Below, in pieces: positions 56,351 to 61,364 of a stretch of 64,000 nucleotides of DNA (the first letter of the stretch is position 1; each line of letters begins with the position of its first letter). This DNA comes from Woeseiaceae bacterium. Lineage in GTDB: Bacteria > Pseudomonadota > Gammaproteobacteria > Steroidobacterales > Woeseiaceae. Made by a program: the position numbers and the translations under genes. The stretch lies in the NCBI GenBank assembly GCA_030065915.1, contig JASJCQ010000004.1:248001-312000 (forward strand), written 5' to 3'. Under the pieces are notes generated by a model, which was not told the DNA's origin, searched no databases, and saw only the letters and a list, made by a program, of their open reading frames with translations.

Positions 56351-58042
56351 TCAAAAGGCGCTGCTTTGAGAGGGTTCCTCCGTTGCGGCGGGACTGACCG
56401 TGAACCAGGTGCCGTAAACGCCGTTCACATCCGTGGTTGTCGCGTCGCCTGAGAAGAAGTACAGCGGATCGCCCTGGTAGGTCCACTGGCGTGAGCCGTC
56501 CTCGCGGTCAATGATTGCAAAGTCACCCTGCGGTTTGTCGCTTGCGCCGGCGTAGAGCGGCGGCCAGGTCACGGCGCACCCGCCGTTGCAGTCAGAATCG
56601 CCCGCACCGTCGCCATCGGCGTCATTGCGGTCGTTATCGAAGCGATACAGCGTGAAGCCGGTGCGGTCGCTGAGCGTTTCTGCCCGCTCACCGTTGTCGT
56701 CGACGTCATAGATCATGCCGCGCGCCTCGAAGATCGTTCCGGTCGAGTCGTCGGTGACGGCCTGCAGCGGTGCCGTGCGAGCGAGATGCCAGACGCCGCC
56801 AACTTCGTCGCCGGTGACGTCGCCCGGCGCAACGTCATTAGCGAAGAAATAGAGCGGCTCGGCTTTGAAAGCCCATTGGCGGCTCCCGTCGTCGCGGTTC
56901 ACCAGCGAGAAGTTGCCGCCTGGCGTTGCGCCTGCGTCGGCAAAAACCGGCGGCCAGGTCACGGCGCATCCGCCGTTGCAGTCTGAATCACCGGTGCCAT
57001 CGAGGCCCGAGTCGTTGGCGTCATTGTCAAACACGTACAGGCTGAAGCCAGCCAGCTCTGCACGGTCGAAGGTCTTCTCGCCGTTGGCATCTACGCCCGG
57101 GACGGATGTCGCGCCAGAGAGTATCGGGCCGAGCGACGAGTCGGATGCCTCGATCGGCGCCGGACGGGCGACGTACCAGACGTCGCCGGCGCCTTCGCCG
57201 CGTGTTTCGCCGGGCGCCTGGTCCGGTGCATAGAAGTACAGCGGCAGTCCGTTCAATGCCCACTGCCGAGTCCCGTCGTCACGATCGACGATCGTAAACG
57301 CACCACCGTCGGTTGCGGCCGCATCGGCATACAGCGGTGGCCAGACTTCGGCGCAGCCGGCGTTACAATCGGAGTCGCCGGCGCCGTCACCGTCGGTATC
57401 GTTGCGATCGTTCTCAAACGTGTACAACGTGAAACCCTCGCGATCGAGTCGCTCTGTCGCCTGCCCGCCGGTTCCGTCCGTGTTGAGGACGCTGCCGCGA
57501 CCGACAAACAGAATGCCCTTTGCCGTGTCGTCAACGGCGGCCTGTTGGTACGGGTTCGGCCGCGCGACAAACCAGGCGTCGCCGGAGCCTTCGCCGTTGA
57601 CATCCCCACTCGCGGAATCGCCCGAGAAGGTATACAGCGGCAGTCCCTTGAACGCCCACTGCAGGCTCGTACCGTCGTCACGCGTAATGATCGTGAAAAA
57701 GCCCTCTGCAACCGAGGTCTCGTCGGCCAGCAGCGGTGGCCACGTCGTTGCGCAGGCATCGTTGCAGTCGGAGTCGCCGTTACCGTCGCCGCCCGTGTCG
57801 TTACGATCGTTCTCGAACGTGTACAACGTCAGGCCGTCGCCGGCCTTGCTGAATACGTCGCCGATCGTCGTCGCGGCAGTCGTGCCCGGCGCAGCGACCT
57901 GCGGTGTGTTGGTCAGGGTCGGCTCCGGGTCTTCCGCGGGAGGGGAGTTGCCGGAGTCGTCCGAAGAGCTGGAGCAGCCCGTAAGTACCAGGCTCAAGCC
58001 GGCCGCAAGAAGCGCCAGCGGGCGCAGTGTCGAAACAGTCAT
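56351..58042 (-). CDS. lipoprotein with four tandem PF03640-like (Lipoprotein_15, COG4315-like) repeats
   Basis: Lipobox LTGC; four repeats of GFTLYxFxNDxNDxDGDGxGDSDCNxGCAxxWPPLxA...RDDGxRQWAxxGxPLYFF. Confidence 0.85.
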
Positions 58043-58110: not shown

Positions 58111-58126
58111 CGAGAAAATGGTTCAA
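58111..58126 (-). promoter_or_regulatory. candidate ECF -35 element TTGAACCATTTTCTCG upstream of the lipoprotein
   Basis: Shares TTGAACC-N-TTTT with the divergent element at 58172-58185. Confidence 0.45.
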
Positions 58127-58171
58127 CGCGAGACGGCTGTTGTTGTTTCAGGACGTTTCCGTGCGAACCCG

Positions 58172-58185
58172 TTGAACCTTTTTCC
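58172..58185 (+). promoter_or_regulatory. candidate ECF -35 element TTGAACCTTTTTCC upstream of the sigma factor
   Basis: GAACC-type ECF -35 with a TACGTA/CGGGTA-like -10 region about 16 nt downstream. Confidence 0.5.
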
Positions 58186-58230: not shown

Positions 58231-58821
58231 ATGACGGCACTGTCATTGGCAAATACGGACCACGCTTTGGGCATGACGGCCGCGACGACAGACAATGATG
58301 AGCGTTCCCTGATCGCCCGCATTGCAGATGCGCGTGACACCGCCGCGTTCGAGCGGATGTATCACGACTACCGACGTCGGTTGGGCCCGTTCGTGTATCG
58401 AATGATCCGCGACCCGGCCGCCAACGACGAGGTGTTTAACGACGTCATGCTGGCCGTCTGGCGAAATGCGGCGAGCTTCACCGGCAAGTCGAAGGTGTCG
58501 ACGTGGGTTTTTGGCATCGCATACCGGCAGTGCCTGAAGCATCTACGTGCTCGCCGGTCCACGGTGGAACTCGACGAGTCCATGCACGACGGCGTCGACG
58601 AACGTAAGACGATCGAGCGGCAGGATCTCGTATTGCGCGCCGTCGCAGGTTTGTCGCCTGAACAGCGGCTGGTTATCGAGCTGTCGTACTTCCAGGGCAA
58701 CACCTACGGTGAGATCGCCGAGATCGCCGGCTGTCCCGAAAACACCGTCAAGACGCGGGTGTTTCACGCACGCCGTCGACTGAAAGCCATCATGGTCGAG
58801 CTCGGCGAGCAGGCTCCTTAA
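58231..58821 (+). CDS. ECF RNA polymerase sigma factor
   Basis: FNDVMLAVWRNAASFTGKSKVSTWVFGIAYRQCLKHLR; TYGEIAEIAGCPENTVKTRVFHARRRLK. Start could also be ATG 58273. Confidence 0.93.
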   Translation: MTALSLANTDHALGMTAATTDNDERSLIARIADARDTAAFERMYHDYRRRLGPFVYRMIRDPAANDEVFNDVMLAVWRNAASFTGKSKVSTWVFGIAYRQCLKHLRARRSTVELDESMHDGVDERKTIERQDLVLRAVAGLSPEQRLVIELSYFQGNTYGEIAEIAGCPENTVKTRVFHARRRLKAIMVELGEQAP

Positions 58822-58835
58822 GAGGAACAGTGAAG

Positions 58836-59447
58836 ATGAGCAACAACGTAAGCCAAATGCACTCACGCGAAGCTATCGATAATGAGCTGGAACTCGTCGA
58901 CTACGCGGCCGGTCGCTTGAGCGACGAACAGGCAAGAGCGTTCGAGGCGCGTTTGGCGGTTGATACCGAGTTGGCTGGCAGGCTCGAAGATGAGTACGCA
59001 TTGCGCGAGTCTCTTGAGACGCTTGAATCGACCGGTATGCCGCCAGCCAGGTCTTTCGACGCGATCGCAGGCAAGCTCAACGCGGAGCCCAGGCGCTCTT
59101 CATGGCTGCCGGCAATCGCGGCAGGTATCGTCGCCGTCATTGCGATTGCTTTCGTGATGCAGACCCCGAATGAATCGACAATCGTCCGGGATGGTTTCGA
59201 GACTTTATCGAATGACGGCGCAATGCCTGTAGACGCTGGCAGCCGTATTCGCATCGTGTTTGCTGACAACGTCGATGCGTCCTCTCGCGATGCTGCTGCC
59301 GTGGCTCTTGGGTTCGATATTGTGTCCGGTCCCGGCACGGGCGGCGCTTTCGTCGTAGAGACATCGCAACCGGTGAGTCGCGATCAGCTGCTCGAATGGC
59401 GACAGGATGAGCGCATCGAGCTCGCCGAGCCCATACGCTACGATTGA
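58836..59447 (+). CDS. single-pass anti-sigma factor-like protein
   Basis: N-terminal ELVDYAAGRLSDEQARAFEARLAVDTELAGRLEDEYALRESL (anti-sigma-like helices), TM AIAAGIVAVIAIAFVMQ, extracytoplasmic C-domain. Confidence 0.8.
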   Translation: MSNNVSQMHSREAIDNELELVDYAAGRLSDEQARAFEARLAVDTELAGRLEDEYALRESLETLESTGMPPARSFDAIAGKLNAEPRRSSWLPAIAAGIVAVIAIAFVMQTPNESTIVRDGFETLSNDGAMPVDAGSRIRIVFADNVDASSRDAAAVALGFDIVSGPGTGGAFVVETSQPVSRDQLLEWRQDERIELAEPIRYD

Positions 59448-59451
59448 GACC

Positions 59452-60696
59452 ATGATCAGCTTCCGCTCCATCGCCGCCCTGATTGTCGTCGGACTGCTCG
59501 TCGGTGTAGCTGACATGCGGGCAGTCATTGCAGACGAGGCTGACGAATCCAGGGCGGACGAGTGGATCGTTGTTATGACCGACACGCGGTCGAGCCGGCG
59601 CAAGGGTTGGTCGTCCGGCGTCGGCTACTCCGGCAGCTACAACTATGCCAATGATCCGAAGCTCAAGCGTCTTGCGACGAAACTCGCCAGTGACTATAAG
59701 CTCGAAGTCCGGAATCAATGGCCGGTACGTGCGCTTAACGTGCACTGCGTGGTCGTCAAGATCAGCGACGACGTGCAGGCTACCGTCGCGGCGCTCGAGG
59801 AAGACAAGCGCGTCGAGTGGGTCCAGCCCCTGCACGAGTTCGAAGGGCTGGCGGTTGCAACGGGTGAAGCGGCTCCCGCGGCGGAGCCTTATCGGCACCT
59901 TCAATCGTCGCTGGACATCATGAATATCACCGCGCTGGACGATGGATTAAGTGGTGCCGGCATACACATCGCTGTCGTGGACTCGGGTGTCGAGCAGGAT
60001 CACCCTGACATACAGCATGCGTTGGCCGAGCATCACGACTTCGTCGGTACCGGTAGCAGCTCGGAGCGACACGGAACCGGCATCGCCGGGGTCCTCGTCG
60101 CGCATAATCGTAACGGCGTTGGGATCAGCGGGGTCGCGCCGGGCGCGCAGCTACATGCCTATCGGGCGTGCTGGGAATCCGACGACGGTAAGACACGCTG
60201 CAACAGCCTGACACTGTCACTGGCGCTGGACCAGGTCGTAGACGCCGCACCGCATATCGTAAACCTGAGTCTGACGGGTCCGAGAGACCGCCTGTTGGAC
60301 AGGCTCGTCGACCGTATCCTCGAGAACGGCTCGATTGTCGTCGTTGCCCATGATGGAACGACACCGGCTAACAACCGGTTCCCGTCACCACGCCCGGGCA
60401 TCGTTACCGTTCGCGACGGGTCCAAGACAACCAACAATGAACGCGGCGTATTCGCGCCGGGCGACGCCGTGCTGACGGCGCAGCCCGGACACTCGTATGA
60501 CTACATGACCGGAACCTCACTGTCCGCTGCGCACGTCTCCGGCGTCGTGGCGCTGATGCTCGAAGCGAACCCCGAGGTAGACGTCGTCGAGGCATCCACG
60601 ATGCTGGCCGACAGCATTCGCTCGAACGGGGAGGGAGCCAGCATAGACGCCTGCGCAGCGGTTAGTTCCGCCACAGGCAGGGTGCGGTGTCGCTAA
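59452..60696 (+). CDS. S8 (subtilisin-like) serine peptidase with N-terminal propeptide
   Basis: Catalytic Asp IAVVDSGVEQDHPD, His RHGTGIAGVL, Ser GTSLSAAHVSGVVALML; I9-like propeptide DEWIVVMTD...VVVKISDD...RVEWVQP. Confidence 0.92.
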   Translation: MISFRSIAALIVVGLLVGVADMRAVIADEADESRADEWIVVMTDTRSSRRKGWSSGVGYSGSYNYANDPKLKRLATKLASDYKLEVRNQWPVRALNVHCVVVKISDDVQATVAALEEDKRVEWVQPLHEFEGLAVATGEAAPAAEPYRHLQSSLDIMNITALDDGLSGAGIHIAVVDSGVEQDHPDIQHALAEHHDFVGTGSSSERHGTGIAGVLVAHNRNGVGISGVAPGAQLHAYRACWESDDGKTRCNSLTLSLALDQVVDAAPHIVNLSLTGPRDRLLDRLVDRILENGSIVVVAHDGTTPANNRFPSPRPGIVTVRDGSKTTNNERGVFAPGDAVLTAQPGHSYDYMTGTSLSAAHVSGVVALMLEANPEVDVVEASTMLADSIRSNGEGASIDACAAVSSATGRVRCR

Positions 60697-61364
60697 TACA
60701 CCAGGTAGCTTAGACGCAGCGCGAACGTCGTTCGGCCCGTAACGAAAATGCGCTCAGACTCTTCGTCAACGGCGCTCAGGCCCAGCGACACATCGAATCG
60801 ACCTGCGCGATAGCCGATACCCGCTTCCGCGTAGTAGATGCTCGTATCCCAGGGACCTGTCAGGTAACCGACTCCGCCCGCGAGCAACAGGTACGACGAT
60901 ACCGAAAGCTCGGGCCGCCAGTTGCCTGAAACGATGACGCTGTCGGCGTCCCGGCCGTAATAGTCAGGCGACCACGTTAGCGATGCGGACAACTCCGGGT
61001 TCAGGTGGTAGCTGCCGCGGAGCTCCGTGTAGTCCCAGTTGGAGATATCGAGGAAACGGCTTCGAGCGACGGATAGCTCGACAGCACGATCTCTGTCGAG
61101 TTCGTGAAACCAGCCGACGAAGGCATTCCAGTTCCGCGTCCTTGAAGCATCCAGCGGCGACTCGTTTGAGTAAAAGCCGCTGAGACCAGCGAACCAGCCG
61201 GCAGGTGCGTCGTAGCTTGCGCTTACGCCAAGCGCCGGGCCGCCGTCCGTCAGGCTCTGGCCTCGCTCAACAACATCGGAGAACAGGTGTACCTCAGCGG
61301 ACAGCTCAGCGGAGGCGGGTTGCCACAGCCAGGCGAACAGGAGCAGTGAGCAGCGTTTGAGCAT
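60693..61364 (-). CDS. TorF/Gcw_chp-like putative outer-membrane beta-barrel protein
   Basis: Signal peptide then ELSAEVHLFSDVVERGQSLTDGGPALGVSASYDAPAGWFAGLSGF; alternating amphipathic strands; C-terminal aromatic. Confidence 0.75.
   Translation of the reverse strand: MLKRCSLLLFAWLWQPASAELSAEVHLFSDVVERGQSLTDGGPALGVSASYDAPAGWFAGLSGFYSNESPLDASRTRNWNAFVGWFHELDRDRAVELSVARSRFLDISNWDYTELRGSYHLNPELSASLTWSPDYYGRDADSVIVSGNWRPELSVSSYLLLAGGVGYLTGPWDTSIYYAEAGIGYRAGRFDVSLGLSAVDEESERIFVTGRTTFALRLSYLVY

Follow-up and report, generated by a model that had tools for sequence, protein, structure and literature searches.

In the window, i.e., the whole stretch of 64,000 nucleotides from a marine gammaproteobacterium that has been analysed here, three closely spaced forward-strand genes encode an ECF sigma factor, an anti-sigma factor and a subtilase that carries a signal peptide and a prodomain. 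The sigma and anti-sigma genes are separated by 14 bp, and 4 bp lie between the anti-sigma stop and the subtilase. Above the Pfam cutoffs, Sigma70_r2/r4 have been found in the sigma factor and Peptidase_S8 in the subtilase; the anti-sigma factor has matched no Pfam family. This trio had been proposed in the initial annotation, and both its composition and its coordinates have been borne out by the ORF positions and Pfam. The genes and their surroundings are arranged as follows:

56351..58042, minus strand: divergent Lipoprotein_15 repeat protein (Pfam 3e-74; same neighbour in the loci L110 and L111)
58115..58127, minus strand: second copy of the promoter element, GTTGAACCATTTT, toward the divergent lipoprotein gene (motif comparison, genome count)
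58171..58183, plus strand: candidate ECF-type -35 element of the sigma operon, GTTGAACCTTTTT (conserved upstream in three genomes)
58231..58821, plus strand: ECF sigma factor, 196 aa (ATG at 58231; Pfam Sigma70_r2 2e-12, r4_2 7e-16)
58836..59447, plus strand: anti-sigma factor, 203 aa (ATG at 58836; NCBIfam antisigma 8e-7, residues 20-112)
59452..60696, plus strand: secreted S8 subtilase, 414 aa (ATG at 59452; Pfam Peptidase_S8 1.3e-27)
60693..61364, minus strand: TorF/Gcw_chp-family putative porin (NCBIfam gcw_chp 4.9e-11, just under the curated cutoff)

The window's three closest genomes have GTTGAACCTTTT in common upstream of the sigma gene, and in the same three genomes an inverted TTGAACC core precedes the divergent Lipoprotein_15 gene. 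In the genome, GTTGAACC(A/T)TTTT is matched exactly at these two sites only, the motif having been defined on those copies. Since the conserved -35-like element is shared, the regulon probably includes the sigma operon and the divergent Lipoprotein_15 gene. Of 20 wider loci, 8 (L110-L112, L116, L117, L119, L122, L126) have a relative of the TorF/Gcw_chp porin on one side or the other of the sigma/anti-sigma/S8 module, and genes for secreted CxxCH-type proteins lie divergently next to the module in L114, L116 and L117, which come from relatives in the window's genus.

The anti-sigma factor consists of an N-terminal anti-sigma domain, one transmembrane segment (about residues 89-110) and a periplasmic end of 90 residues. 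In this layout and in the position of its gene after that of an ECF sigma factor, it agrees with the class I (ZAS-type) anti-sigma factors; the NCBIfam antisigma match on the N-terminal half is weak and lies under the family's full-length cutoff. The HxxxCxxC zinc motif is missing and the whole protein contains no Cys, so that the absence of zinc-binding cysteines pointed out in the initial annotation is correct, but it is a trait of the lineage, as HxxxCxxC has been kept by many related anti-sigmas (e.g., L004, L009, L016). The periplasmic end and the subtilase have been resolved into the following parts:

59241..59444, plus strand: prodomain-like C-domain of the anti-sigma factor, ending at the protein's C-terminus (AF2, Foldseek, PF22148 family matches)
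59560..59829, plus strand: subtilase prodomain, residues 37-126 (AF2 b-a-b-b-a-b; weak Pfam Fervidolysin_NPro match, 0.041; where the C-domain profile aligns best in hhalign)
59953..60627, plus strand: catalytic domain with the triad D177 (59980), H207 (60070) and S356 (60517)
60346..60360, plus strand: A-H-D-G-T where the AAGN motif of the oxyanion hole would be expected (14 type-A proteases aligned)

The AF2 model of the window C-domain (ma39611f886de, pLDDT about 90) shows a beta-alpha-beta-beta-alpha-beta fold, and this topology, which had been predicted for both the anti-sigma end and the subtilase propeptide, has been confirmed by AlphaFold2 for the two domains. When the C-domain model was searched against 350,542 PDB chains with Foldseek, the top match was the PC1/3 prodomain bound to furin and the second the free PC1/3 prodomain, while the top 19 also included the subtilisin BPN' prosegment, pro-subtilisin E, POIA1, the Tk-subtilisin propeptide and S1P. 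The prodomains have been superimposed with an rmsd of mostly 2-3 Å, compared to 4-8 Å for ribosomal S6 and most other ferredoxin-like folds. The E-values are modest (best 0.013), which is to be expected of so small a domain. With this topology and with prodomains as its nearest structures, the C-domain has the fold of a subtilase prodomain.

At the level of families, the C-domains of related anti-sigmas have been scanned singly against all Pfam, and 14 of 52 have matched PF22148 (Fervidolysin_NPro-like; sets 8/25 and 6/28, best 6e-6), which is the commonest Pfam match, the next families matching one or two members each. The C-domain of L031 reaches 26.9 bits against a curated cutoff of 21, and the other singly scored anti-sigmas stay under it. 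Among 19 control ends, taken from proteins encoded after unrelated ECF sigmas, PF22148 has not appeared in the best 25 of 29 families listed, where families were ranked by members and E-value and those outside the best 25 were weaker than 0.2. The window C-domain alone has matched no Pfam family, so that its assignment depends on fold and family. When the C-domain family was moved along the protease alignment with hhalign, the match was strongest at the prodomain of the protease (E 6.5e-5), and windows in the catalytic domain mostly gave E 0.3-0.5 (best 0.006); an earlier hhalign run with 8 rows had reached a probability of 56% with an alignment that was doubtful except in the last 40 columns. 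For two prodomain types that are more distant (B and Meso), no alignment with the C-domain profiles has been obtained, which makes the link between C-domain and prodomain clear but remote, and a search of the profile against PDB sequences has returned three unrelated weak matches and no prodomain. Homology of the anti-sigma C-domain to subtilase prodomains is supported by PF22148, Foldseek and hhalign together; the kinship proposed in the initial annotation holds in this sense, but the propeptide had been called I9-like, and the Pfam family that is matched is PF22148 and not Inhibitor_I9 itself. As the C-domain forms the C-terminus of a separate anti-sigma factor and does not precede an S8 catalytic domain within one chain, it is related to the prodomain family without being an ordinary prodomain.

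The by-eye alignment from which this kinship had originally been proposed is by itself at chance level. BLASTP of the window C-domain against the subtilase prodomain gave E 0.032 over 12 residues, and the Smith-Waterman score of 31 was equalled by 237 of 2000 shuffles (12%), so that the pairwise alignment has been rejected as proof of kinship; what sustains the kinship is the family evidence from Pfam, Foldseek and profile-profile comparison. The shared ending D-x-R-(I/V)-E-x2-(E/Q)-P is real, but the preceding L-x3-D is not: the anti-sigma factor has L-x4-D and the prodomain L-x2-D. Anti-sigmas that have the conserved AEP run on for 0-17 residues beyond it and then end, which is roughly the position at which a processed propeptide ends after cleavage. 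A product-like anti-sigma tail lying in the protease cleft would be compatible with this position, but its spread is wide.

A related domain has also been observed outside anti-sigma factors. At L029:1480-1896, a free-standing lipoprotein carries a domain of the C-domain type that scores over the PF22148 cutoff, and it is encoded directly before an S8 gene whose product has its own prodomain. The lipoprotein is probably a dedicated inhibitor or chaperone, and it shows, as a bridge, that the domain is used as a separate, membrane-tethered, propeptide-like protein.

C-domains have been gathered through sequence and profile searches of 99 relatives, 369 genomes of Gammaproteobacteria and 399 of Pseudomonadota. 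When the C-domain alone is the query, anti-sigmas are recovered across Alpha- and Gammaproteobacteria, and an S8 gene adjoins 48 of 55 such loci, although the search profile was free of protease sequence (L035, a false positive, L029, not an anti-sigma, and L034, which could not be judged, are omitted from this tally; the S8 gene of L032 is cut by the contig end and was judged from its N-terminal part). Among 40 ECF or zf-HC2 loci, S8 genes stand beside 5/5 with a C-domain versus 0/35 of the others. The S8 linkage is conserved far outside this genome, though gene order varies: the S8 gene is found downstream in some loci, upstream in others (L043/L136, L046/L137) and, in L056, on the far side of a divergent gap, and as the linked proteases are of several types, the linkage outlasts changes of both gene order and protease type. 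The window sigma and the other C-domain-linked sigmas group together, and the branch that separates them from RpoE6 and 26 background ECFs has a support of 100/96; with one contig-edge background row falling inside the group, they represent essentially one clade. Consequently, the linkage reflects long retention and not many independent gains. In the near-complete genomes G188 and G410, no S8 gene has been found anywhere, although the C-domain has been kept. There and in G310 (L127-L129), the C-domain anti-sigma without an adjacent S8 lies in conserved housekeeping synteny (by appearance carAB, greA, dnaK and dapB). At L133 in G691, the gene of an anti-sigma with the C-domain overlaps a gene of caspase-like appearance in the place of S8, and more caspase-like proteins are encoded nearby, both judged by eye from the sequence. 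The S8-free genomes and the caspase-like gene of G691 indicate that the C-domain can outlive its partner or serve another.

The subtilase itself is a member of peptidase family S8 by its Asp-His-Ser triad, which is invariant in 14 relatives, and by its Pfam score over cutoff, and its AF2 model, prodomain included, corresponds to pro-subtilisin E in the unautoprocessed state (3whi, E 1e-25). The oxyanion Asn is absent from the window protease and from 12 of the 14 aligned type-A sequences, 2 of which retain it. In the window protease and among its type-A relatives (L002-L004, L011, L016, L019-L022, L044, L045, L048-L050), AAGN has been replaced by AHDG, AAPR, PRVA, SQTD and others; AAGN is retained by other protease types in the same gene arrangement. 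Type-A subtilases further share invariant Cys residues in the prodomain (C99) and in the catalytic domain (C240, C250). Proteases of the window type may be slow or poor enzymes, and if so, a role in binding or in a single turnover would be favoured.

We lean, if only slightly, toward a mechanism in which the C-domain docks in trans on its cognate subtilase as a propeptide does, so that the state of the protease controls the sigma factor, which is released on engagement. The C-domain would be bound to the active-site face of the co-encoded subtilase, as the propeptide is in cis, and the free C-terminus of the docked anti-sigma factor would come to lie near the substrate cleft. Upon an envelope signal, the subtilase would mature, lose its own prodomain and engage the C-domain; engagement or cleavage would then open the anti-sigma factor to further proteolysis, presumably with follow-up by an intramembrane protease, and the freed sigma factor would raise its own operon including the protease, and probably the divergent lipoprotein too. 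Docking is supported by the fold and family of the C-domain and by its hhalign match to the prodomain, by the conserved S8 linkage as the functional argument, by the L029 lipoprotein, by the position at which the anti-sigmas end, and by the precedents of propeptide-like inhibitors in trans and of S1P that are described below. Counting against it are the origin of the linked sigmas in one clade, the caspase-like gene of G691, the modest Foldseek E-values, the missing Pfam match of the window C-domain and the failure to align with prodomain types B and Meso. Moreover, a simple protease switch is complicated by the loss of the oxyanion Asn in type A and by the C-domains in S8-free genomes.

The main rival assumes the same docking with the opposite sign: a slow or nearly inactive subtilase would cap the C-domain and guard the anti-sigma factor from ordinary site-1 proteases, until substrates or ligands titrate the subtilase away. 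The loss of the oxyanion Asn in most type-A proteases, with triad and fold kept, is in line with such a shield, the C-terminal tail of the anti-sigma factor could resemble a bound product, and an outer-membrane transducer has been reported to protect an anti-sigma factor from proteolysis (PMC11637429). We nevertheless regard this as rather unlikely, as AAGN has been kept in linked proteases of other types, and the invariance of the triad speaks for retained catalysis.

The C-domain might instead report or limit the free mature protease of its own operon, as inhibitor or folding helper, and thereby hold the protease level constant with no external signal passing through cleavage. Such feedback would agree with the position of the protease gene within a sigma operon that has a conserved candidate promoter, with propeptides acting as chaperones and inhibitors (PMC10580911), and with Sinorhizobium meliloti, in which overexpressed RpoE6 activates the divergent serine protease gene SMa0142 (PMC6180224), an S8 gene by the present analysis. 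But the protease already has its own prodomain, and RpoE6 stands outside this sigma clade with an anti-sigma factor that is devoid of the domain, which leaves the feedback reading improbable. Finally, only shared ancestry or a ferredoxin-like fold might connect the two domains, the C-domain sensing something else and the protease being just a regulon member. Ferredoxin-like folds are common, and the retention of the C-domain in genomes without any S8 and the caspase-like gene in one lineage would be explained; this is nonetheless very improbable in view of the 48/55 linked loci, which extend over different classes, gene orders and types of protease, and of the prodomain being the commonest Pfam match and dominating the best Foldseek matches.

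Site-1/site-2 cleavage of anti-sigma factors is established for RseA-DegS-RseP and MucA-AlgW. These systems resemble the present locus in their membrane-anchored anti-sigma factor with a periplasmic domain, in the sigma gene upstream in the operon and in proteolysis as the likely trigger, but their site-1 enzymes are PDZ or Prc proteases and not subtilases, and we know of none among them whose substrate resembles its own propeptide. A subtilase that makes the first cut in a membrane-anchored regulator under prodomain control is found in eukaryotic S1P with SPRING, where removal of the inhibitory prodomain licenses S1P to start a signalling cascade (PMC11231238); the substrate, however, is unrelated, and control is exerted by displacement of the protease's own prodomain. 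Propeptide-like inhibitors of subtilases acting in trans are likewise established (PMC6993865). POIA1 (PDB 1itp, 1v5i) and the malaria SUB1 propeptide-like protein share with the C-domain the prodomain fold used in trans, but both are free inhibitors that have neither an anti-sigma nor a membrane-signalling part.

Among ECF systems with neighbouring proteases, S. meliloti RpoE6-EcfR6 has an ECF sigma and anti-sigma beside the divergent SMa0142 gene, in an arrangement called widely conserved in ECF26 (PMC6180224). It differs in that EcfR6 has no C-domain match, the sigma falls outside the clade and no propeptide relation has been reported. An assignment of the window sigma to ECF26 has been rejected, as RpoE6 lies beyond the 100/96 branch and EcfR6 lacks a C-domain match, one ECF26 member having been compared. 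ECF54 sigmas also have subtilase genes nearby, or CHAT or carboxypeptidase genes, but there no anti-sigma factor takes part, and the proposal is that the sigma factor itself is degraded by the proteases (PMC8999054). In the open-access literature, no prior description of an anti-sigma factor with a prodomain-like domain has been found.

For most ECF/anti-sigma pairs, the signal is, to our knowledge, not known. The anatomy described here names a signal partner, namely a protease from the same operon whose inhibitor resembles the outer domain of the anti-sigma factor. Tentatively, and with less confidence than we place in docking itself, one may postulate that a dedicated subtilase, as site-1 protease, switches a whole ECF clade of Alpha- and Gammaproteobacteria, with a captured propeptide on the anti-sigma factor as recognition or decoy module, i.e., a bacterial counterpart of S1P/SREBP in which the inhibitor has been moved onto the regulator. 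If true, this would provide a general and testable rule for the clade, including the loci in large-genome Alphaproteobacteria, and it would add a new class of site-1 protease. Evolution would then have made a receptor out of the inhibitor that is built into a protease.
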